Shown one piece after another: positions 29,696-45,621 of a stretch of 64,000 bases of DNA. This stretch comes from Methanoregula boonei 6A8 (GTDB lineage Archaea > Halobacteriota > Methanomicrobia > Methanomicrobiales > Methanospirillaceae), in contig NC_009712.1 in the NCBI RefSeq assembly GCF_000017625.1, forward strand, positions 682,001-746,000. Direction: 5' to 3'. Position 1 is the first letter of the stretch. Each line of letters starts with the position of its first letter. The notes beneath the pieces are model-generated. The model was given only the letters and a program-made list of their open reading frames with translations. It did no database searches and was not told the origin of the DNA. A program made the position numbers and the translations under genes.

Positions 29696-31153
29696 TCACG
29701 ACGCCGGGATGATTTCCGGCGGCTGCCAGCCCGTGCCATTGAGCATGCCCGGGATGTCGGCCTGTTCGGGACCGATGAGCCGCCACATCACCTCGAATCC
29801 CTGCCCGTCCGCGGTCGGCAGCCAGTTGCCTGCCAGGGCCGGGTCTGAAGGCGGCGAAGGCTGCAGGTAGAAATCCACCGAGCCGTCAGTGTTCTGCGTG
29901 AGCTGCGATGTGCTGCCAAGCGCAGACCGGTTGAGGGCATTGGGGATCATCATCCCTTTGAGGTCGTAAACGGTCAGCGCCCAGCCCTCGTCTGCCGGGG
30001 GAGCAGACGCGAGGTGCAGGGTGTAGTTGTTCGATCCGTTGAGCGGATTTTTGTTGTGATCTGCCCAGCTTATGGCATAGATCGCCTGATCGGGAGTAAA
30101 TGCCCCAAGGCCAATCTGGCTTATGACCGCACGCAGCGGGTAATCTGTCCCGTACTGTCCGAAGCCTCCCAGGAGATAGCCGTTGTGCTGATCGAAACTT
30201 TGGAGATACAGGGCCATGGTATCGTTTTTGATCTGTGCGGGACCGGCAGCCACTGCATCATTTAGCCCCCTGAGGGTATCCCTGCTCAGGCTCGTATTGT
30301 GCGAAGGTTCCATCCCGGGCCCGATCCCGACCCCGGCGAACCGGGCAAGCTCGGGCTGGTCGGCAGCCGGCGGGGGAAAGAGCGCCATCTGCTGCCCGAG
30401 CATATCATAGAAAGCAAGCCCTCCGGGCGCCTGGTAAATGATGGGGGTTGCATTGGGATCGGTCAGGTTCGATTGCCGGAAGTTTGTCCCGTACAGGCTC
30501 AGCGGCGTCAGGGTATAGCCATCCTGGATGCGGGTAACGTTTGCGATATCGTAACTCCCGTCCAGCTGGGTTGACCCGATAATCCAGATGCGGTTGTAGT
30601 CCACATCGACGCGGTGTGTCCCCGCCGGGATAGACAGGTTATACTGGCCGGGGCCGGCAATTACGTAATCTCCCGGCGGGGTATTGGCAACGCTGCCGAA
30701 GTTCTGGATGTTGGTGGTGTAGGGATCGATAAAGGCAAGAACGAAGAAGTGGCCCTGTACGTCCGGCACATGAAGGACCTCCGGCTCTTTACTCAGGTCG
30801 AGCCACGCGATGGACGAGAGCCCGGTCGAGCCCGGCGCCACAACCGCCGTGCTCCCGGCGTTATTCAGGGAACGTACGTTGTTGAACTGGTTGACCGGGC
30901 CATACGGACCGTTCGAGACATTGATGCTGGTCATGGTTTCAAACGTCGTGTTGGTCGCAATGAGCGGCAGGCCGTAGGTGTAGGCTTCAAGCCCAATCTC
31001 GTAGCCCCTGGTATAGTCGGCCTGTGATGCGGCCGACTGGTAAGCCGCAACCAGCACCATGGCCGCCACCAGCAGCGCTGCACAGATGACGATGAAAACA
31101 TGTTTCCGCGTAATCGCTTCGCATCTCATACGCGAAAAGTGAAATTTTGCCAT
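29696..31153 (-). CDS. secreted DUF1254/DUF1214 domain protein
   Basis: The 485-aa protein has a membrane anchor or signal at about 18-40 (HVFIVICAALLVAAMVLVAA). The DUF1254 part follows (YEIGLEAYTYGLPLIATN, FNNVRSLNNAGSTAVVAP, LSKEPEVLHVPDVQGHFFVL), and the DUF1214 part is C-terminal (SADEGWALTVYDLKG-like text: PPADEGWALTVYDLKGMMIP, LQPSPPSDPALAGNWLP). Such proteins occur widely in bacteria and some archaea; the reaction is unknown, and structures suggest two beta domains. It should face the outside of the cell. It is transcribed away from the lipoprotein at 31260 on the same strand, 106 bp downstream of it. Confidence 0.85.
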   Translation of the reverse strand: MAKFHFSRMRCEAITRKHVFIVICAALLVAAMVLVAAYQSAASQADYTRGYEIGLEAYTYGLPLIATNTTFETMTSINVSNGPYGPVNQFNNVRSLNNAGSTAVVAPGSTGLSSIAWLDLSKEPEVLHVPDVQGHFFVLAFIDPYTTNIQNFGSVANTPPGDYVIAGPGQYNLSIPAGTHRVDVDYNRIWIIGSTQLDGSYDIANVTRIQDGYTLTPLSLYGTNFRQSNLTDPNATPIIYQAPGGLAFYDMLGQQMALFPPPAADQPELARFAGVGIGPGMEPSHNTSLSRDTLRGLNDAVAAGPAQIKNDTMALYLQSFDQHNGYLLGGFGQYGTDYPLRAVISQIGLGAFTPDQAIYAISWADHNKNPLNGSNNYTLHLASAPPADEGWALTVYDLKGMMIPNALNRSALGSTSQLTQNTDGSVDFYLQPSPPSDPALAGNWLPTADGQGFEVMWRLIGPEQADIPGMLNGTGWQPPEIIPAS

Positions 31154-32850: not shown

Positions 32851-33288
32851 TCAGGCAGCGTTCCGGAATGTGAACCTGCTCTGCCCGTGGTAGCTCCACA
32901 GGAACGCAAGGCAGGTGGCGATGATCTTTGCCAGAAGCGGGGTGAGGGCAAAGAACGTGACCCCAAGCCACACGATCCCGAGGTTGACTATCAGGCAGGA
33001 GATCGAGACCGCGGTAAAGGTGGCAAACTGCACGGCGGTCTTCGTGCTCGTGTCATGGAAGGTGAGGTACTTGTTTGCCAGGTAATTGACCACGATCCCG
33101 CAGCAGTACGAGAATGCAGCCGCATACAGGTACCAGACCTCAAAAAACGTAGTGCAGGTATACATCAGCCCGATATCCACAAGGGACGAAAGTGCCCCGA
33201 CAAGGAAAAAGGGGATGATCCGTGAATGGGTCTGTCCCCGGGCCTCAAGCGCCATAGTCCTGCATCCCGCTCCTGTTCCGTGTGTCAT
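32851..33288 (-). CDS. GtrA family membrane protein
   Basis: The 145-aa protein has four membrane helices and the GtrA signatures FFLVGALSSLVDIGLMY (about 27-43), NYLANKYLTF (about 68-77) and the C-terminal YHGQSRFTF (about 134-142). GtrA proteins help move lipid-linked sugars across the membrane or otherwise support glycosyltransferases. It lies 10 nt after the glycosyltransferase gene at 33299 on the same strand, so the pair probably works together on envelope sugars. An internal Met at 33255 could be the true start, just before the conserved part. Confidence 0.88.
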   Translation of the reverse strand: MTHGTGAGCRTMALEARGQTHSRIIPFFLVGALSSLVDIGLMYTCTTFFEVWYLYAAAFSYCCGIVVNYLANKYLTFHDTSTKTAVQFATFTAVSISCLIVNLGIVWLGVTFFALTPLLAKIIATCLAFLWSYHGQSRFTFRNAA

Positions 33289-33298
33289 GGGTTACTAC

Positions 33299-35653
33299 TC
33301 AGGCAGCCCCGAGGCAGTCGTAGAGGGTGCCGGACCCTGCTTCCGCGTTTCCGGCATTTGTGCCGGTCTGGTTTGCCGCGCCAGCCGTCGATCCTCCCCA
33401 TTCCGATGCGGGGACTGCCGTGCAGTGGGCGCTTACCCAGGAGAAGATCTCGCTGTTCCCGCTGCCTCCCTGTCCCCCGCCCATGCCACCGGTCTCAAAG
33501 TACCGGACCTTATCCTCGTGGATGTACTCCTGGAGGGTGGTGATGGAAAGTGTCTGGTCGCTCCCGGTAAATCCGCCCAGGCACATGACCGGCTTACCCG
33601 TTGTAATAATCAGGTTTGCCCCGTCCTGTGCGCTTGGTACCGCGAGGATCCAGGTTTCGTTTGTGGAATGGGAGATCAGGAATTCCGCGAGTTTGCTTGT
33701 CCCGGTATCCGCCCCATCCATGCCCGGTCCCATACCCTGTGAACCTCCCTGAACGCCCTGTATACCCTGCGGCCCGCCAGTTATGCCATTGCTGTCACTG
33801 GTCTGGTTGCGCGCAAAGCCGCGTGCACTGTCCATGCCCGCTGCCCGGGCCTCCTCCGCTCCTGTGAGTGCGGATCCACCGGGCATGCCGCCGGTGATCC
33901 CGCTACCCACGGCCCCCATGCCGCCACCGGAACCCTGCGGGCCTGCGGTCGGGATAGTGCCACCGTTCCCGGTCATAATCGGCGTGCAGGACCAGACCAG
34001 CGGAGCGATAAAGAGGATGCCGAGCGCGATTGCGACGATATGCATCCTGTGGCGTACCAATCCGTCCGTCTTTTTGAGCTGCAGCCATGCAAGCAGCCCG
34101 GCTCCCGCGAGTGTTCCTACAAGGATGATCGGGATGAGTGGCCCGGCAAAGTCCGCGTTATAGGTAAGGAACAGGACCTGGACAAGGCCGGTGATGAGCA
34201 CTGCACCAGGAAGGAGCCAGCCGGCAAGGCCACCGCTCACGTATTTCTGGTACAGCCCGATCGCCCCGATCCCCACCAGTCCTGCAATCGGCGGGGCCAG
34301 GGTGGCTATGTAATAATCGTGCCAGAACCCGCTGGTGAAACTGAAGTACAGCAGGCCGGGGATCAGCCAGAGCAGCATCGCAATGAGGGTAAGACCTTTC
34401 TCTCCGGTGGACCCTGCATCCTGTAGTCCCTGAAGGGTGAGGGTCGCAGGCCTGCGGACCCAGGCGAACACCCCCATCAGAGCGAAGAGTAGCAGCCAGG
34501 AGATATCCCCGGCAAGGCCCTCGCGGAAGACCCTGAAGATACTCGGGGTCCCTCCGCTGTTCATCCCGCCGCCACCGCCCATACTGTCCGGGACTCCGCC
34601 GGAAATCCCGGATGCTCCCTGCTGCTGCGAACCGGAATATCCCTGCCCTGATCCCAAGCCGGGTGGTGTCATCCCGCCGGGGCCTTCGCCCTGACTATCT
34701 GACAGGCTGCCCGGCGGCGTGCCGGACAAATCTTCGTTGCCGCCCGGTCCTGCAAACGAGGATCCGCTTGCACCTGTACCGGGCATTACGCCGCTTCCCG
34801 GCCCGGATCCTGCCTGACCGTTTGCAGATCCCCCCGGGCCCCCGCTGGTATCATCGATCCCGAGGCGGTGGAGGCCGTTATAATCGACGATCAGGCCAAG
34901 GACGGTGTTGTCCCCGCTCCCGCCGATGTACGGGCGTTCGCTTGCCGGAACCGAGTCAACGGCGACGGCCCAGGAAAGGGAGACGGTAAGAAGGACGATA
35001 ACCGCAAGCCCCACGTGGAGGAATCGTTTTTTCCAGGAAAAATCGGTGGTACCAAGGAAATAAACCGCAAGAATGGCCGGGACCACGATGAATGCCTGGA
35101 TCATCTTGATGTTAAAGCCAATCCCGACAAGGATAACCGAGATAAGGAGCCAGACCGGGGACCGCTCCCTTGTTGCCTTAAGCACGGCCCAGACGGCAAG
35201 GAGGAGAACAAAGATCAGCTGGGTATCCATGGTCCCGTTCCGGGCGATCGCCACAAAGATCGGGGTGAGCGCAAGGGCAAAGGCTGCAACGAGCCCTGCC
35301 GGTTTCCCAAACGGGCGGGAGACGATGATATAGAGAAGTGCCACCGACCCGATCCCGGCAAGCGCCTGGGGGAGGACCAAAACCCAGCCGGAGAACCCGA
35401 GCACCACAGCAAAGGCCGCCTGGACCCAGAGCCCGACCGGGGGCTTGTCTACGGTAATGAACCCGGCCGGGTCAAAGGAGTTGAAGAAACCCGCCGCCGG
35501 GTTCACGAGCATGGTCTTTACGGCTGCCGCGTAGTAGGTATTCGAGATCCCCTGGTTCCAGATGTTCCAGAGATTTAAGAACGCCGCAAGAATGAGGATC
35601 CCAGAGAGCAGGCACTCAGCCCGGTACCGGTAGAAAAATTCCGGAAAATTCAT
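33299..35653 (-). CDS. ArnT/YkcB-like membrane glycosyltransferase with Gly-rich loops
   Basis: The 784-aa GT-C-type enzyme has about a dozen membrane helices. Near the start it has the acidic loop region GISNTYYAAAVKTML and FDPAGFITVDKPPVGLWVQA, matching PMT/ArnT-type transferases using lipid-linked sugars. Two extracytoplasmic stretches (about 265-368 and 560-650) are Gly/Pro/Met/Ser-rich. The C-terminal domain (AEFLISHSTNETWILAVPSA, PVMCLGGFTGSDQTL) is that of YkcB-type proteins of Gram-positive bacteria. Acquisition from bacteria is possible but untested. It overlaps the small gene at 35650 by 4 nt and is followed by gtrA. Confidence 0.88.
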   Translation of the reverse strand: MNFPEFFYRYRAECLLSGILILAAFLNLWNIWNQGISNTYYAAAVKTMLVNPAAGFFNSFDPAGFITVDKPPVGLWVQAAFAVVLGFSGWVLVLPQALAGIGSVALLYIIVSRPFGKPAGLVAAFALALTPIFVAIARNGTMDTQLIFVLLLAVWAVLKATRERSPVWLLISVILVGIGFNIKMIQAFIVVPAILAVYFLGTTDFSWKKRFLHVGLAVIVLLTVSLSWAVAVDSVPASERPYIGGSGDNTVLGLIVDYNGLHRLGIDDTSGGPGGSANGQAGSGPGSGVMPGTGASGSSFAGPGGNEDLSGTPPGSLSDSQGEGPGGMTPPGLGSGQGYSGSQQQGASGISGGVPDSMGGGGGMNSGGTPSIFRVFREGLAGDISWLLLFALMGVFAWVRRPATLTLQGLQDAGSTGEKGLTLIAMLLWLIPGLLYFSFTSGFWHDYYIATLAPPIAGLVGIGAIGLYQKYVSGGLAGWLLPGAVLITGLVQVLFLTYNADFAGPLIPIILVGTLAGAGLLAWLQLKKTDGLVRHRMHIVAIALGILFIAPLVWSCTPIMTGNGGTIPTAGPQGSGGGMGAVGSGITGGMPGGSALTGAEEARAAGMDSARGFARNQTSDSNGITGGPQGIQGVQGGSQGMGPGMDGADTGTSKLAEFLISHSTNETWILAVPSAQDGANLIITTGKPVMCLGGFTGSDQTLSITTLQEYIHEDKVRYFETGGMGGGQGGSGNSEIFSWVSAHCTAVPASEWGGSTAGAANQTGTNAGNAEAGSGTLYDCLGAA

Positions 35654-35826: not shown

Positions 35827-36039
35827 AGCGGTACCCTCTTTCCGGGAGATTCCCGTCACTGGGACAGATATATTGGTGTCATGGTACTGGTCAAGCCTGA
35901 TCCCCGGGCGGGATATATTCAACTCTGCCGGGTAATATATTGCCCCCGGAAAAATGCCAATCTATTTTATTGCCTGCACTGATACTATGGTAAAGGATAC
36001 CGGCAGATCCCCGGTGTATCCGGACTAAAAGAGGTCTTT

Positions 36040-36810
36040 ATGGCAGCAGACAAAAAAACGGTCAGCATCTCGTCGGATCCGGAATTCCTGGAGGAGTTGT
36101 CCGAGTACCTCGAAGTCCTCTCCAATCCCGTACGGCTCAAGATACTCAAGGTGATAGAACGGGAGCCAAAGGAGATCACCGAGATAGCCTCAAAGATCAA
36201 CACCAGCTACGCCAACACGAAAAAGCATATCGACCAGCTGGTCCATATCGGCCTTGTCCAGAAAGAGGCCGGCTTTGGGCGTGAGACGGTAAAAGGGATC
36301 CACCCGGTCTGGAAGTTCTCGCTTGCAAAGGGCAGCCTTGAGATGCTCATCAAAAACCTCGGGGTTTTTTCCCGGGTAAATATCCCTATGGGGTATGGCG
36401 AGATCCAGAAGAAAATGGAAGCGGTGCGGGCCGCAGTTCTCGAGGAGTCCGGTACCACCGGCCCGGCCCTCCACCTCATGAGCGGGAGTAAGGCAGGCCA
36501 GACGTTTCTCTTAAAAAAAGACCATGTGGCTGTGGGCCGGGCCGATCCCGATAACCCCGGCAGGGCTGGCGAAACGGATATTGTCCTTCCCGATGAGTAT
36601 GGAATGGTCACACGCATAACAAAACCGCACGCGATCCTCTCCCGGTCGGCGGACGGCTGGCAGATCGAGGATCGCGGGAGTTCAGGAGGGACCTATGTGA
36701 ATTCGGAGGTCTCCTCCCCCCAGCACCGGACCCTGCTCCGTGACGGGGATGTCATTGACTGTGCACTCGGGGAGAGCGCAGCCCGGTTCCTGTTTATCGC
36801 AGAGAAATAA
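36040..36810 (+). CDS. HTH (ArsR-type) regulator with C-terminal FHA domain
   Basis: Residues 15-85 form a winged helix (YLEVLSNPVRLKILKVIERE, EITEIASKINTSYANTKKHI) like ArsR/HTH_5. Residues 150-256 form a forkhead-associated domain: VAVGRADPDN, TRITKPHAILSRSADGWQIE and DRGSSGGTYVNSE, with GR, the phospho-contacting region and the S-x-G-T-x-V-N turn. FHA domains bind phosphothreonine, so this is probably a DNA-binding protein controlled by a Ser/Thr kinase. The gene is followed after 48 nt on the same strand by such a kinase. The SR-x-x-H of classic FHA is partly replaced by T-R-I-T-K-P-H. Confidence 0.88.
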   Translation: MAADKKTVSISSDPEFLEELSEYLEVLSNPVRLKILKVIEREPKEITEIASKINTSYANTKKHIDQLVHIGLVQKEAGFGRETVKGIHPVWKFSLAKGSLEMLIKNLGVFSRVNIPMGYGEIQKKMEAVRAAVLEESGTTGPALHLMSGSKAGQTFLLKKDHVAVGRADPDNPGRAGETDIVLPDEYGMVTRITKPHAILSRSADGWQIEDRGSSGGTYVNSEVSSPQHRTLLRDGDVIDCALGESAARFLFIAEK

Positions 36811-36858
36811 CCCATACGTTCATCACAAGGCCTTCCCGTACAGGAAAGAGGAGCATTG

Positions 36859-38874
36859 ATGAGAATCTCAGCCCCGGGGGCACAAATGACCACCTTTTTT
36901 TACCGGGTACTTTTTGTACTGCTCCTTTTTGCCCTCCTTGTTTCCTGGCCGGTAGCGGCAAAGGTTGTCACCTATAACGGGACCGGTGCCCCTGGTGAGA
37001 TCCAGGGAATAATCGAGAATGCCAGCAACGGGGACAGCATCTTTCTTTACGGGGGCACGTACGCAGGCAACCTTGTCATCGATCGCTCTATTGTCTTTGG
37101 TGCGATTGATTCGGCAGACCCGCCGCGTATTGTCACGAGCGGTGCCGGCGCCGGCCTCACGCTCTCTGCCGATGATATCACGATCAACGGCATCTCTGTG
37201 CTGGGGAACGCATCCACGGGAATTCTCGTGGCGTCCAACGACAACCGGATTACCGGGAGCACGATCTCGGGGCACTCCACCGGGATCGCATTTACCTCGG
37301 GCTCCCATAATGTCCTTTCCGGGAACACCATTGTCGGGAACGGTGTAGGCATCAGTCTTGACCGCAGTTCGGATTCCAACCTTGTCTATTTTAACGACTT
37401 TAACAACACGCTCGATGCCGTCAGCCAGTCCATGGACAATATCTGGTTCTCGGCAGGCCAGGAGTACCAGTACCAGGGAAAGAATCTGACCGGTCCCCTT
37501 GGGAACCACTGGCCGGGAGCCGGTTCCGCTGACAACAACGGTGACGGCGTAGGAGACTCTTCGTTCTCCCTTGTGCCGGGGGGTCAGGCATATCCCGGTG
37601 CGGTGACGATCACCGATTCAGCACCTCTTGTGGCATCCCTTTCGGCCTACACGATCACAAAAGCGGTGCCGTTTGTCGATATTTCGGGTGCCGGCCTCAG
37701 GCAGCAGTCAGGATTCCCTGCATCCCAGCAGTCGGGAGGTATCCAGCCCGGAACCACATCCGGTGGGGCTATCCAGCCTGTACCCACATCAGGCGGAGCA
37801 GGGCAGTCACTTTCAGGAGGTCTCCCCTCCGGCAGCCTGCCATCAGATCTTAACCAACAGATCCAGCCTCCCAACCCCGTGGTGGGCTTTCTCATTAACT
37901 TCTGGTACCTGATCCCGGTGGCCCTGGTCATCTCTGTTGCTGCCGGCATCTGGTTTGAGCGTTCCCGCAGGAAAAAGCCGGATCACCCGGAACCGGCCCG
38001 GGACACCCGGAATGCGACCGTTGTGCAGAAAAATGAGGGATATGCCTCCCCGGCGCAGCCCGGGCACGAGTACGCGATCCGCCTGCCTGCGGCTCTCGAG
38101 AGGAAGTATCCCGGTGCGGAGTACCTTGCCGAGGGTGGGGTTTCCCGGGTTTTCAAGGCCCGCGACGAGAAGAACGGGAGGGATATTGCAGTCAAGGTCC
38201 CGATCCGGTTCGATGAGGTAACCGGGACCCAGTTTACTAAGGAACTCTCCATCTGGGAGGGGCTCCACCACGAAAATATCGTCGAGCTCTACGCGGCAAA
38301 TATCTTCCCCCTGCCGTTTATCGAGATGGAATACGTCCACCGGTCGCTTGCGGAGGTACCATTCCCTATCGATGAGACCCGGGCAGTGGGAATCCTTATG
38401 GGAGTTGCCGAAGGTCTCCGGTACGCCCATGGGCAGGGTATCGTCCACCGGGACATCAAGCCGGGAAATATCCTCCTGACCCCTGACGGCATCCCGAAGA
38501 TTACCGACTGGGGTCTTTCCAAGGCCCAGGGGACAAAACAGTCAGGTATCATTGGATTTTCCCTGGAATATGCGGCACCGGAACAACTGGCCCCCAACCT
38601 GTTCGGGGAGCCGGGCCCCTGGACCGACATCTACCAGCTGGGCGTCCTCTTCTACGAGATGCTTGCGGGACATGTGCCCTTCTCCGGCGCCGGTGTGGGC
38701 GAGATCACGCACGCGATCCTGCATGATGCACCGGCACCGGTTGTGACCGGGGATAAAAATGAGGAGATCATTAACACCATTATTGCCCGGTGTCTCCGCA
38801 AGCGTCCGGAGGACCGGTATGCCTCGGTAGCGGATCTCATAACCGATCTCCGTACTCTTGGCAGTTCCGGGTAA
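36859..38874 (+). CDS. transmembrane Ser/Thr protein kinase with extracellular beta-helix
   Basis: The protein (671 aa) has a signal peptide (about 12-35) and a right-handed beta-helix of NosD/CASH type (about 40-260: NGISVLGNASTGILVASNDN, NVLSGNTIVGNGVGISLDRS). A Ser/Gly/Pro linker and one membrane helix (about 345-366) follow, then a cytoplasmic kinase. The kinase has GGVSRVFKARD (P-loop), DIAVKV (Lys), HRDIKPGNILL (catalytic, Asp about 530), TDWGLSK (DWG instead of DFG) and APEQL. All catalytic residues are present. It likely senses a surface polymer or sugar and phosphorylates the HTH-FHA protein encoded just upstream. ATG 36859 follows AAAGAGGAG. Confidence 0.9.
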   Translation: MRISAPGAQMTTFFYRVLFVLLLFALLVSWPVAAKVVTYNGTGAPGEIQGIIENASNGDSIFLYGGTYAGNLVIDRSIVFGAIDSADPPRIVTSGAGAGLTLSADDITINGISVLGNASTGILVASNDNRITGSTISGHSTGIAFTSGSHNVLSGNTIVGNGVGISLDRSSDSNLVYFNDFNNTLDAVSQSMDNIWFSAGQEYQYQGKNLTGPLGNHWPGAGSADNNGDGVGDSSFSLVPGGQAYPGAVTITDSAPLVASLSAYTITKAVPFVDISGAGLRQQSGFPASQQSGGIQPGTTSGGAIQPVPTSGGAGQSLSGGLPSGSLPSDLNQQIQPPNPVVGFLINFWYLIPVALVISVAAGIWFERSRRKKPDHPEPARDTRNATVVQKNEGYASPAQPGHEYAIRLPAALERKYPGAEYLAEGGVSRVFKARDEKNGRDIAVKVPIRFDEVTGTQFTKELSIWEGLHHENIVELYAANIFPLPFIEMEYVHRSLAEVPFPIDETRAVGILMGVAEGLRYAHGQGIVHRDIKPGNILLTPDGIPKITDWGLSKAQGTKQSGIIGFSLEYAAPEQLAPNLFGEPGPWTDIYQLGVLFYEMLAGHVPFSGAGVGEITHAILHDAPAPVVTGDKNEEIINTIIARCLRKRPEDRYASVADLITDLRTLGSSG

Positions 38875-42330: not shown

Positions 42331-43554
42331 TCACTCGCTCCTGAGGGCATCGATCGGGTCCATGTTCGAGGCCATCCAGGCCGGGTACACACCGGAGATC
42401 ACACAGACCACCACACCGATGAGCATGGCTGCCGGGACATACAGGATACTTGCCGGCTGGAAGAAGTACGCCGTAGTACCTATCATCGCGTCCACCACGG
42501 AGTACCCGATGATCAGGCTGCTTGCACCCCCGATCCCGGCACCGAGAAGCCCCAGGATGAAGGACTCATACATGAACATCCGGCGCACCTCGCCTTTTTC
42601 CGTACCTATGGAGAGCAGGATACCAATTTCCTGGATCCGTTCGGAGACTGACATCATCATCACGTTGAAGATACTTACGGCCGCAACGAGGAGTGATATC
42701 CCCCCGATGGCCATGATAAACGTGGTCACCGTACTTAAGGTGGATGTCTCGGTTGCAAGCTGCGATGACGCATCCGTGATCCTCACCGAGGGGGACTTTG
42801 CATTGGTGTTGACCTTGTCATCTATGGCACTTTCAATGTCACTGATGTTGTCCACATCCTTGACAATCACGTTTACCTGGGTCCACTCGTTCTTCCCGCC
42901 GTACTGGTTGGTATACCAGTTGCTGTTCACCACAACCGCATTGTCCGTTGAGACCCCGTCAGCAACGGTTCCCCGGGGCTGGAGGACTCCGGCTATGCGG
43001 AGTTCCGGCCGGGATGAGGACGAGAACGATCCGATCCTGATCCGGGTGCCCACCTTGAGGTTGAACTCTTCTGCAAGTTCTGACCCGACGAGAACCTCTC
43101 CTGTCCCAATCTCCGTTGTTCCGTTGCCATAGGACTGGTTTATGGAAAGGAACTTTCCTATATCCCCAGGATCGATACCATAGATCGATCCCCTGCCGGC
43201 AACGGAATTTATCGTGAATTCACCGCTTGTGGAATAGATGGGGATCACGGTTCCGTTCGATCCCACGACCGAAGTGATCTTCGTCAGCTCGGTCTTGGTT
43301 ATGCCGGAAGATGACGACGACGAAGGAGTGAATCCCGGCGGCCCCATCCTGACGGTATCCGAGGATATGACAATGGTGTTTGCGGTTGCCGAAAGCTGTT
43401 CTTTGACTTCCAGCTGCATGTTGGTGCCAAGCATTCCCATCGATGAGATCGCAACCACACCGATCACGATGCCGATCGCGGCAAGCATCGAGCGCAGGAA
43501 GTTCAGGCGCACACTCCGGACAGCGAGGTTAAAGAAGATATCCCCTTTTATCAT
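42331..43554 (-). CDS. MacB-type ABC transporter permease
   Basis: The 407-aa protein has one N-terminal helix (about 18-40), a large extracytoplasmic MacB_PCD domain (about 45-260, with GTNMQLEVKEQLSATANTIV and FSINQSYGNGTTEIG-like text), and three helices of the FtsX fold at about 285-310, 335-360 and 370-395. Such permeases act by mechanotransmission rather than solute channelling, working on lipoproteins, peptides or secreted proteins. It overlaps the ATPase gene upstream by 4 nt. Substrate unknown; the secreted protein at 44242 in the same unit is the natural suspect. Confidence 0.9.
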   Translation of the reverse strand: MIKGDIFFNLAVRSVRLNFLRSMLAAIGIVIGVVAISSMGMLGTNMQLEVKEQLSATANTIVISSDTVRMGPPGFTPSSSSSSGITKTELTKITSVVGSNGTVIPIYSTSGEFTINSVAGRGSIYGIDPGDIGKFLSINQSYGNGTTEIGTGEVLVGSELAEEFNLKVGTRIRIGSFSSSSRPELRIAGVLQPRGTVADGVSTDNAVVVNSNWYTNQYGGKNEWTQVNVIVKDVDNISDIESAIDDKVNTNAKSPSVRITDASSQLATETSTLSTVTTFIMAIGGISLLVAAVSIFNVMMMSVSERIQEIGILLSIGTEKGEVRRMFMYESFILGLLGAGIGGASSLIIGYSVVDAMIGTTAYFFQPASILYVPAAMLIGVVVCVISGVYPAWMASNMDPIDALRSE

Positions 43555-44231
43555 GATTCTGCAATCCTCCCGTCCACCAACCGTATAGTACGCTGTGCGT
43601 ATTCCGCGATCTTAGGGTCATGGGTCACAATGATCACGGTCTTTCCCTCACGGTGCAGGCCGCAGAGGATGTCCATGATCTGGTACCCGGTCTTACTGTC
43701 CAGGTTCCCGGTCGGCTCATCGCAGAGAAGGATCTTCGGGTCGTTAACGAGCGCCCGGGCAATGGCTACCCGCTGCTGCTGACCCCCTGAGAGCTGAGTC
43801 GGCCGGTGTGCACTCATATCCTTGTTGATACCCACCTGTTCGAGCAGGATGGTGGCCTTGCCGGTCGTATCCCTTTTTTTGTATTTCAGGATAAGCGGGT
43901 ACTCCACGTTCTCGTATGCCGAGAGGAGAGGGATCAGGTAGAATTTCTGGAAGATATACCCGATGGTGTCCCTGCGCATATGCGTCCGCTCAAGGTTCGA
44001 CATTTCAGCTACATCCCTGCCCGAGATATACAGTTTTCCCGAGCTCGGGACATCGAGGATCCCCAGCTGGTTCATCATGGTTGATTTGCCGGATCCTGAC
44101 GGCCCCATGATGGCGACAAAGTCGTTCTCCTTGATCTCAAGGGAGACATGATTGAGAGCGGTAAAGTCTCCGCTCTCCAGATGATAGGTCTTTGTCACGT
44201 CAGCAAGCTGGATTACAGGGATATCGGTCAT
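43551..44231 (-). CDS. MacB/LolD-type ABC transporter ATPase
   Basis: The 226-aa ATPase has Walker A GPSGSGKSTMMNQL, signature LSGGQQQRVAIARALV, Walker B ILLCDEPTGNLD and switch VIIVTHDPKIAEYA. The combination GNLDSKTG and the LGILDVPSSG segment are typical of LolD/MacB/YknY ATPases. It drives the permease encoded next to it. It begins 10 nt after the secreted-protein gene, so the three form one operon, secreted partner first. Confidence 0.93.
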   Translation of the reverse strand: MTDIPVIQLADVTKTYHLESGDFTALNHVSLEIKENDFVAIMGPSGSGKSTMMNQLGILDVPSSGKLYISGRDVAEMSNLERTHMRRDTIGYIFQKFYLIPLLSAYENVEYPLILKYKKRDTTGKATILLEQVGINKDMSAHRPTQLSGGQQQRVAIARALVNDPKILLCDEPTGNLDSKTGYQIMDILCGLHREGKTVIIVTHDPKIAEYAQRTIRLVDGRIAES

Positions 44232-44241
44232 GTCCGATCCC

Positions 44242-45621
44242 TCACTGCTTCTTGTTCAGTTTGAGAAGGATCCATTTCCGCTTTTTCCACAGGACAATGC
44301 CGGCAATGAGTATGATCACTGCTCCTATGACCGGGTAGAACGAACTGATCCCGCCGCCTTTGCTCCCCGAGAAGAGTGAGGTGACACTGCTCGAACTGCT
44401 GCCACCCGGTCCTCCCATATCGCCGCCCGGGCCACCGCTCATCCCGCCGGGGCCTCCCGACATGGAACCTGATGAGCTGGAGGTGGTGGAGGTCTTTGAA
44501 GTACTGCTGCCTGTGGTGCTGCTGGTGCCGGAGCTGAGATCGAGAGTCTTTGTGATGTTGTAATCATTCCCTGACGAGTCCTTCCAGCTGACTACCAGGG
44601 GGACTGCCGAAAGATCATTTGCGGAAAAGGTGACATCGAAGCTCCCGGAATCGTCGGAGGCAATGCTGCCGATCGCATACACGGGGTAGGTTCCGGTTGC
44701 AATGGCCGGGGACCCGACCGTGACGGTCACTCCGTAAGCGTCCGTGATCCCGGCATTGGTGACATCCCCGGTGATTTCCTGGGTCGATCCTGATGACGTG
44801 AGTTCCACATTGTTGACAATGGGCACGGCAGCGGTTTTGTCCTGACCCAGGGTGATTGGCAGTACGACATCGGTGTAATGGGTGTTGTCCCCATCCTGGT
44901 AACTGACATTGAACGTGAGATCAGAGGCCTGGTGGGGGGTTATGCCAAAGGTCACAGCAGAGGAACTGCCGGCACTGATGGTGGGAATAAGTTCCACGGA
45001 CGGGTCCGCGTCGATACCCGACCCTACCGGAGTGATCACGATATTTTTAATGTCACCACTACGGGTGTTCATGAGGGTGAGTGTCACGTTCTGCTCGGCT
45101 TCTGGAGCATATGAAGTGGGTTGAGAGGTGATTGCTCCCGTGAGCGTGTTTGAACTAATCTTAATCTTCACCGGGTAATGGATGGCGTTGCCGTTCTGTG
45201 TCCCGATAGTAAAGAGCGCGAAATAGGTGCCGCACGGGGGTTTTACGGTGAAGGGGATCGAGTACGTGAGCGAGGAACCTGCACCAACAAAACTCATGCC
45301 CACCCAGTCATTGTTCTCGGTAGAGATATGGGGACTTATCAGGGTCGGGTTTTCCAGCCCGATAGCCGATGTTCCACCGTTGGTGAGGGTAACGCTCAGC
45401 GTACCTTCGTCATCGGGGAAGTACTCGTTGGTATCCAGACTTATGTTCGAGACATACACCAGGGCTGCCTGGTCGACCGTTGAAGTCGAACTTGAGGTGG
45501 ATGAACTGCTGGTAGTGCTGCTTGACGTGCTCGATGTTGTGGATGAGCTGTCATCCGCGTATACCGCTGATACCATCAAAAGTATCAGCAGGCAACTCAA
45601 AATACCTAGTTTCCATTTCAT
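44242..45621 (-). CDS. secreted COG1361-like S-layer-type protein, partner of the ABC exporter
   Basis: The 459-aa protein has a signal peptide (about 1-22), a Ser/Thr run, then beta-sandwich domains of the kind grouped as COG1361/NEW1-CARDB (SLDTNEYFPDDEGTLSVTLT; NVTLTLMNTRSGDIKNIVIT; NNVELTSSGSTQEITGDVTN). After a Ser/Gly stalk with G-G-P-G-G-M repeats (about 395-420) it has a C-terminal helix and a basic tail (LWKKRKWILLKLNKKQ). Similar proteins often precede MacB-like ABC genes in archaea, as here. It may be a substrate or an external adaptor of the transporter. Confidence 0.85.
   Translation of the reverse strand: MKWKLGILSCLLILLMVSAVYADDSSSTTSSTSSSTTSSSSTSSSTSTVDQAALVYVSNISLDTNEYFPDDEGTLSVTLTNGGTSAIGLENPTLISPHISTENNDWVGMSFVGAGSSLTYSIPFTVKPPCGTYFALFTIGTQNGNAIHYPVKIKISSNTLTGAITSQPTSYAPEAEQNVTLTLMNTRSGDIKNIVITPVGSGIDADPSVELIPTISAGSSSAVTFGITPHQASDLTFNVSYQDGDNTHYTDVVLPITLGQDKTAAVPIVNNVELTSSGSTQEITGDVTNAGITDAYGVTVTVGSPAIATGTYPVYAIGSIASDDSGSFDVTFSANDLSAVPLVVSWKDSSGNDYNITKTLDLSSGTSSTTGSSTSKTSTTSSSSGSMSGGPGGMSGGPGGDMGGPGGSSSSSVTSLFSGSKGGGISSFYPVIGAVIILIAGIVLWKKRKWILLKLNKKQ

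Follow-up and report, generated by a model that had tools for sequence, protein, structure and literature searches.

Organization of the locus

The 64,000-nucleotide stretch of DNA analysed here (the window; positions 682,001 to 746,000 of contig NC_009712.1) comes from Methanoregula boonei 6A8, whose genome is a single contig of 2,542,943 bases. On its forward strand it carries two adjacent genes, one coding for a transcription regulator of 256 aa with a helix-turn-helix (HTH) and an FHA domain (36040-36810), the other for a transmembrane receptor Ser/Thr kinase with a beta-helix (36859-38874). We read the pair as a module that carries signals from the membrane to the genes by means of Ser/Thr phosphorylation, with a proposed switch at threonine 7 (T7) of the regulator, and give this reading a probability of about 0.7. 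Both open reading frames (ORFs) were found at the positions given in an earlier note on this DNA. The kinase frame is open from TTG 36856, the start used in the ORF list; ATG 36859 is the likeliest start and leaves the 48-nt gap between the genes that the note had reported. Residue numbers of the kinase are counted from TTG 36856, those counted from the ATG being one less. Pfam and the structure model also recover the domains that the note had named, i.e. a winged HTH and an FHA domain in the regulator, and a NosD beta-helix, one membrane helix and a Pkinase domain in the kinase.

A second pair formed by an HTH-FHA gene and a beta-helix kinase gene is present in the same genome (2033038-2035981) and belongs to a separate subfamily found in much of the genus. 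The genome contains two FHA matches only, which correspond to the regulators of these two pairs.

Conservation and co-evolution of the two genes

The regulator is conserved across the host order (Methanomicrobiales), with homologues in 134 of its 199 genomes; from one family (f6) it is almost absent. A profile of the HTH-FHA protein run against 393 genomes of the phylum (E 1e-10) matched 64 genomes, none outside the order, and the same 64 are the order's only members with an FHA match of any kind (E 1e-6). No relatives were found on plasmids.

The earlier note had made its proposal depend on the two genes being conserved as neighbours, and this proved to be the case. At least 105 of the best 150 HTH-FHA genes are followed on the same strand, at no more than 4 kb, by a kinase gene, and a kinase is present in 19 of 20 loci retrieved from the remaining 45 (one kinase is split by a frameshift). 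In a separate collection of 80 named loci, which overlaps the first in organisms, the kinase comes next in all 71 that have room downstream, the other nine ending at most 1.3 kb beyond the HTH-FHA gene. Twelve further loci have it in all cases except one, which runs off its contig. This order-wide linkage rules out that the pair is a local accident. Among 102 distinct pairs the two genes overlap in 42 and lie up to 120 nt apart in 57.

The exception among the 20 retrieved loci (L089) has an HTH-FHA gene at 1516-2316 followed by a gene coding for a PP2C phosphatase. Considered as a breach of the pairing rule, the locus proved to have a second HTH-FHA gene with a kinase 3 kb further on. This second regulator is strongly diverged, with a poorly conserved HTH part, and is paired with a receptor kinase, which places a writer, an eraser and two readers close together (L089, 1516-8000).

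Pairwise distances among regulators and among kinase domains are strongly correlated (Mantel r 0.884, the best of 300 permutations reaching 0.096), a figure to which shared descent contributes. One explanation would give the two proteins separate functions within one operon, the regulator controlling operon expression alone and the kinase acting on other proteins. A promoter element that stands solely before HTH-FHA genes (see below), as in simple autoregulation, would fit such an arrangement. We regard it as very improbable, because the regulator contains a putative phosphothreonine-reading domain, a Ser/Thr kinase adjoins it at nearly every locus and the distances of the two proteins are so strongly correlated.

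The FHA loci inspected in other groups of the phylum, with domains judged by eye, showed no pair of an HTH-FHA protein and a receptor kinase. One cluster from another family of the phylum (L270, 2482-7662) encodes zinc-ribbon-like, kinase-like and PP2C-like proteins in a region with several FHA matches, and may represent a soluble network resembling the Arn system (discussed below) outside Crenarchaeota.

The regulator and its N-terminal threonine

The winged HTH covers approximately residues 20-95 (36097-36324); its helices and wing are seen in the model, and Pfam matches it to HTH_20 (6.9e-8), HTH_45 (9.2e-7) and HTH_5/ArsR (6.2e-6). The FHA domain, approximately residues 140-254 (36457-36801; Pfam FHA 2.8e-10), superposes by VIA-align on the FHA domain of DgcB with Z 17.0 and a root-mean-square deviation of 1.8 over 100 residues. 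The closest solved folds to the FHA model are those of DgcB, GarA, EmbR (Z 15.5) and OdhI and, among archaea, ArnA (14.8). As judged from its sequence, the partner of the kinase is a protein that joins a winged HTH to an FHA domain keeping the phosphate-binding Arg, Ser/Thr and His of the phosphothreonine site (G166-R167, Ser or Thr at 194, Thr194 here, and H197).

Residues 1-11 of the regulator form a tail that is disordered in the model (predicted local distance difference test, pLDDT, <50) and has a single threonine, T7 (codon 36058-36060), located 13 residues before the L-x-x-Y-L of helix 1. All 113 homologues have Thr in the T7 column, none of them Ser, Val or Ile, and the columns around it in the tail show nothing like this degree of conservation. 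The same is true of representatives below 70%, 60% and 50% identity (29/29, 17/17 and 8/8), among which no single residue exceeds a frequency of about 0.4 in the tail columns from -4 to +5 around T7. A hydrophobic residue stands at +1 in 98% of the homologues and at +3 in 86%, with V, I or L making up 97% and 85%, giving the pattern T-hydrophobic-x-hydrophobic, and FHA ligands are known to prefer a hydrophobic residue at +3. The conservation of Thr alone in a disordered tail, together with the hydrophobic +3, makes T7 resemble an FHA ligand. The regulator thus has a conserved Thr with FHA-type flanks in a disordered N-terminal tail, as do GarA, OdhI and DgcB, and we propose T7 as both a phosphorylation site and a ligand of the FHA domain.

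Another possibility is that the module works independently of phosphorylation, in which case the FHA domain would need no phosphate to bind the kinase or itself, and T7 would have a structural role, for example in a beta-strand added to the FHA sheet. The beta-strand propensity of T-V-x-I and the replacement of Asn by Gly across the FHA family would agree with this. Several features nevertheless make it improbable: G166-R167, Ser/Thr194 and H197 are retained, the N-terminal tail is predicted to be disordered, T7 is never replaced by Val or Ile, and PP2C co-occurs in the operon.

The receptor kinase

The kinase matches NosD (6.4e-19), Beta_helix (7.3e-8) and Pkinase (5e-36) in Pfam. In the model an N-terminal hydrophobic helix (residues 9-29) is followed by a right-handed beta-helix of NosD type, predicted to be extracytoplasmic (approximately residues 37-270, 36964-37665; strands mostly at pLDDT 85-96), a disordered stalk (274-344), the membrane helix (352-372, 37909-37971), a disordered cytoplasmic juxtamembrane linker (373-406, 37972-38073; pLDDT <50) and the kinase domain (411-668, 38086-38859). 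By its sequence, the protein has its sensor outside and its kinase domain inside the cell, the gene always standing directly behind that of its partner.

The closest solved fold to the kinase domain is PknB (Z 30.9) and the catalytic set is complete, with K447, the alpha-C glutamate E463, D533 of HRD, N538 and D551 of DWG. By these features the protein is a Hanks-type (eukaryote-like) Ser/Thr protein kinase. K447, D533, N538, D551 and W552 are invariant in the 44 members aligned. The magnesium-binding motif, DWG in place of DFG (38506-38514), has no exception in these 44 members of the kinase family; CK2, which is constitutively active, shares it. The activation loop carries T560 and S563, in a region that is variable among members.

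The linker contains a Thr-hydrophobic motif, RNATVV, whose Thr388 (codon 38017-38019) is the proposed docking phosphothreonine for the FHA domain; the pattern N-x-T-hydrophobic is common to most of the close clade. More generally, T[VIL] is present in 88 of the 105 linkers, compared with 54 after shuffling (maximum 69), and in 28/38 and 17/21 of the representatives, values reached by none of 1000 shuffles. The same comparison of 105 linkers with shuffles gave no excess of S, A, N, G or K before V, I or L. It is possible, on the other hand, that the FHA domain reads the activation loop alone. The enrichment of Thr-hydrophobic pairs in the linker would also be expected if the membrane sequestered the regulator, the FHA domain on the phosphorylated kinase holding it off DNA until a signal alters the phosphorylation of the kinase and sets the regulator free, and T7 being part of an interface, not a phospho-switch; fixed operon pairing and co-evolution of the two proteins point the same way. 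We find this explanation unlikely, as it leaves unaccounted for a residue that is always Thr and never Ser, in an otherwise variable disordered tail and with an FHA-type +3.

Exchange of sensors on a fixed output

All 49 members inspected have the kinase domain at the C-terminus. What precedes it differs greatly, with the classes set by hydropathy: among 102 members, 28 have a large ectodomain and one membrane helix, 33 a small domain flanked by two hydrophobic helices, and 41 a membrane region of several helices, alone or together with an ectodomain. Pfam recognizes NosD in 19 and PEGA in 4 of 44 sensors. At least seven changes of sensor class are found on a tree of the regulator and kinase domain that includes some long branches, which indicates that sensors were exchanged while the output pair stayed the same. 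The earlier suggestion of a carbohydrate as ligand finds no support, the sensors being too different between lineages to generalise.

Promoter element and genomic neighbourhood

The upstream regions of eight members of the genus are nearly identical at 35950-35989 (forward strand) and hardly alike elsewhere. This conserved promoter element of the operon has its core, TATTTTAT (35963-35970), behind a conserved A-rich/CCAA box. Its pattern has a single occurrence in the M. boonei genome at one mismatch; across the genus, the sites that match it perfectly stand before HTH-FHA genes. A wider regulon was sought with the same pattern; the matches beyond the own promoter are scattered and have no common neighbour, so no wider regulon is claimed.

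The envelope-gene context that the earlier note had seen around the pair is real and conserved in the genus, where the gene order is GtrA, PMT_2 glycosyltransferase, HTH-FHA, kinase, PKD protein, MacB/FtsX permease, ABC ATPase and a 459-aa surface protein. It is kept in most close relatives, parts being missing or off the contig in some. Among these envelope genes the best candidate target is the ABC exporter operon on the reverse strand (42331-45621), which codes for the 459-aa surface protein, the ATPase (ABC_tran) and the permease (MacB_PCD/FtsX). A gene of the 459-aa family lies within 10 kb of 9 of the 30 HTH-FHA genes located in near-complete contigs, against 0.36 expected under uniform placement, a comparison in which related genomes are not independent. 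In 17 genomes the exporter operon is no more than 10 kb away from an HTH-FHA gene or, once, from its kinase. In other lineages as well (L082, L085, L102, L103, L182, L202, L237, L238 and L240), the 459-aa/ABC/MacB set, complete or in part where the retrieved stretch ends, adjoins the pair in the same direction, upstream or downstream, and with unrelated sensors.

Genes for PP2C phosphatases stand beside the pair at 13 of 133 loci, in several lineages and always on the strand of the pair. Those of the M. boonei genome adjoin other kinases (598774-600211, 1345877-1347393 and 416954-419930) in separate Ser/Thr signalling clusters.

Other genes of the window include the divergent neighbour of the regulator, conserved in the genus, which encodes a PMT_2/YkcB-type glycosyltransferase with long Gly/Ser-rich insertions (33299-35653) and adjoins a GtrA-like gene (32851-33288), and a gene for a DUF1254/DUF1214 protein with an N-terminal hydrophobic helix (29696-31153).

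Proposed signalling pathway

From these features we infer a chain of kinase autophosphorylation, docking of the regulator, phosphorylation of T7, binding of the phosphorylated T7 by an FHA domain and changed DNA binding at its targets. A signal at the outer domain would activate the kinase, perhaps through pairing of two copies, and the kinase would phosphorylate itself at sites including the linker threonine (T388 here) or the activation loop. The FHA domain would dock on this phosphothreonine, and the kinase would then phosphorylate Thr7 in the disordered tail of the regulator. The resulting pThr7, with its hydrophobic +3, would be bound by the FHA domain of the same or a partner subunit, which would free the regulator from the kinase, rearrange it and change its DNA binding. 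Targets would be the own promoter and, in many lineages, the neighbouring operon of the MacB-type ABC exporter. The pathway would be reset by a PP2C phosphatase, whose gene belongs to the operon in some lineages and lies at other places of the genome in M. boonei.

The one-step path from the surface to transcription that the earlier note had put forward is thus strengthened by the linkage of the two genes, their parallel evolution, the co-directional PP2C genes and the conserved tail threonines. We also favour, with somewhat less assurance, a more general picture in which the whole order uses such a Ser/Thr module in place of a two-component system, with a kinase of exchangeable sensor as writer, a T7-switched winged-HTH-FHA factor as reader, a PP2C eraser in some operons and the MacB-type exporter among the targets.

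Several observations weigh against the phosphorylation-based module. The main molecular doubt is that the Asn of the N-G turn in the FHA domain is Gly in nearly all members (Gly216 here), a loss that may weaken or alter phosphopeptide binding. T7 itself could be conserved for a structural reason. In the linker, T[VIL] is enriched, not universal (it is missing from 17 of 105), and the residue at +3 of the linker Thr is usually non-hydrophobic, unlike that of T7. Most loci have no adjacent PP2C (present in 13/133) or ABC operon (about 20/120), and the 64-kb window has no PP2C beside the pair. Finally, for the mycobacterial HTH-FHA regulator EmbR, phosphorylation was not observed in vivo during normal growth (PMC9239209).

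If the proposed module is correct, Ser/Thr phosphorylation would link the membrane to transcription through a fixed partner and a single predicted phosphosite, in a domain of life where signal relay by Ser/Thr kinases is poorly known. The sensor exchange seen on these Ser/Thr kinases is of the kind known from histidine kinases. The topology of the kinase, with an N-terminal sensor and a C-terminal kinase domain, resembles that of animal and plant receptor kinases. No description of the archaeal pair was found in the open-access literature, in line with the earlier note, which knew of no archaeal example. Among archaea, FHA proteins have been stated to be conserved solely in Crenarchaeota (PMC10470591). 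To these the pair described here adds an entire, large order of methanogens, in which the FHA protein is standard and stands beside a receptor kinase.

Comparison with known systems

The bacterial counterpart of the pair, which the earlier note did not name, is EmbR-PknH of Mycobacterium tuberculosis, where the gene of a transmembrane Hanks-type kinase likewise adjoins that of an HTH-FHA regulator; the idea therefore has a precedent. PknH has its kinase domain N-terminal and its sensor C-terminal, whereas the archaeal kinases have an N-terminal sensor, which has been exchanged, and a C-terminal kinase domain. EmbR carries an OmpR-like DNA-binding domain and a BTAD, whereas the archaeal regulator has an ArsR-like/HTH_20 winged HTH and no BTAD match in Pfam. 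Given the different DNA-binding domain, the lack of a BTAD and the opposite kinase topology, the archaeal pair is not a member of the EmbR-PknH system. The FHA domain of EmbR is required for its in vitro phosphorylation by PknH, and EmbR acts on cell-envelope genes (PMC7785237, PMC9239209). It is phosphorylated at T22, T164, T275 and other sites (PMC9239209). These are not known to make up an N-terminal switch bound by the protein itself.

Such a switch, as proposed here, would link the archaeal regulator to GarA, OdhI and DgcB, which have the closest solved FHA folds and share with it a disordered N-terminal tail with a conserved Thr and a hydrophobic +3. A crystal structure shows the FHA domain of DgcB in complex with the phosphorylated N-terminal peptide of the same protein, and the tails of GarA and OdhI are likewise bound by the proteins themselves (PMC6733907). 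The output of these proteins is enzyme control or a diguanylate cyclase, that of the archaeal regulator a DNA-binding domain, and their tail motif has Ser at +1 where the archaeal regulator has a hydrophobic residue.

Within archaea, the Arn network of Sulfolobales similarly combines an FHA protein, Ser/Thr kinases and a phosphatase in controlling the transcription of surface structures. It comprises the FHA protein ArnA, the vWA protein ArnB, the kinases ArnC and ArnD and PP2A (PMC10470591). ArnA, however, has a zinc ribbon and a vWA partner, whereas in the pair described here HTH and FHA are joined in one protein that is served by a receptor kinase. The FHA domain of ArnA keeps Arg, Ser and Asn (PMC10470591), the last of which is lost in nearly all members of the HTH-FHA family.

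Finally, the arrangement of the locus recalls systems of the BceRS-BceAB type. In those systems a single locus encodes a membrane sensor, one DNA-binding output and a MacB/FtsX-type exporter, and the same three elements are found together here. In the archaeal module a Ser/Thr kinase and an FHA reader take the place of the histidine kinase and receiver, and neither protein of the pair has a HATPase, HisKA or receiver match in Pfam. The earlier note's comparison with a two-component system assembled from Ser/Thr parts fairly describes what the pair works like.

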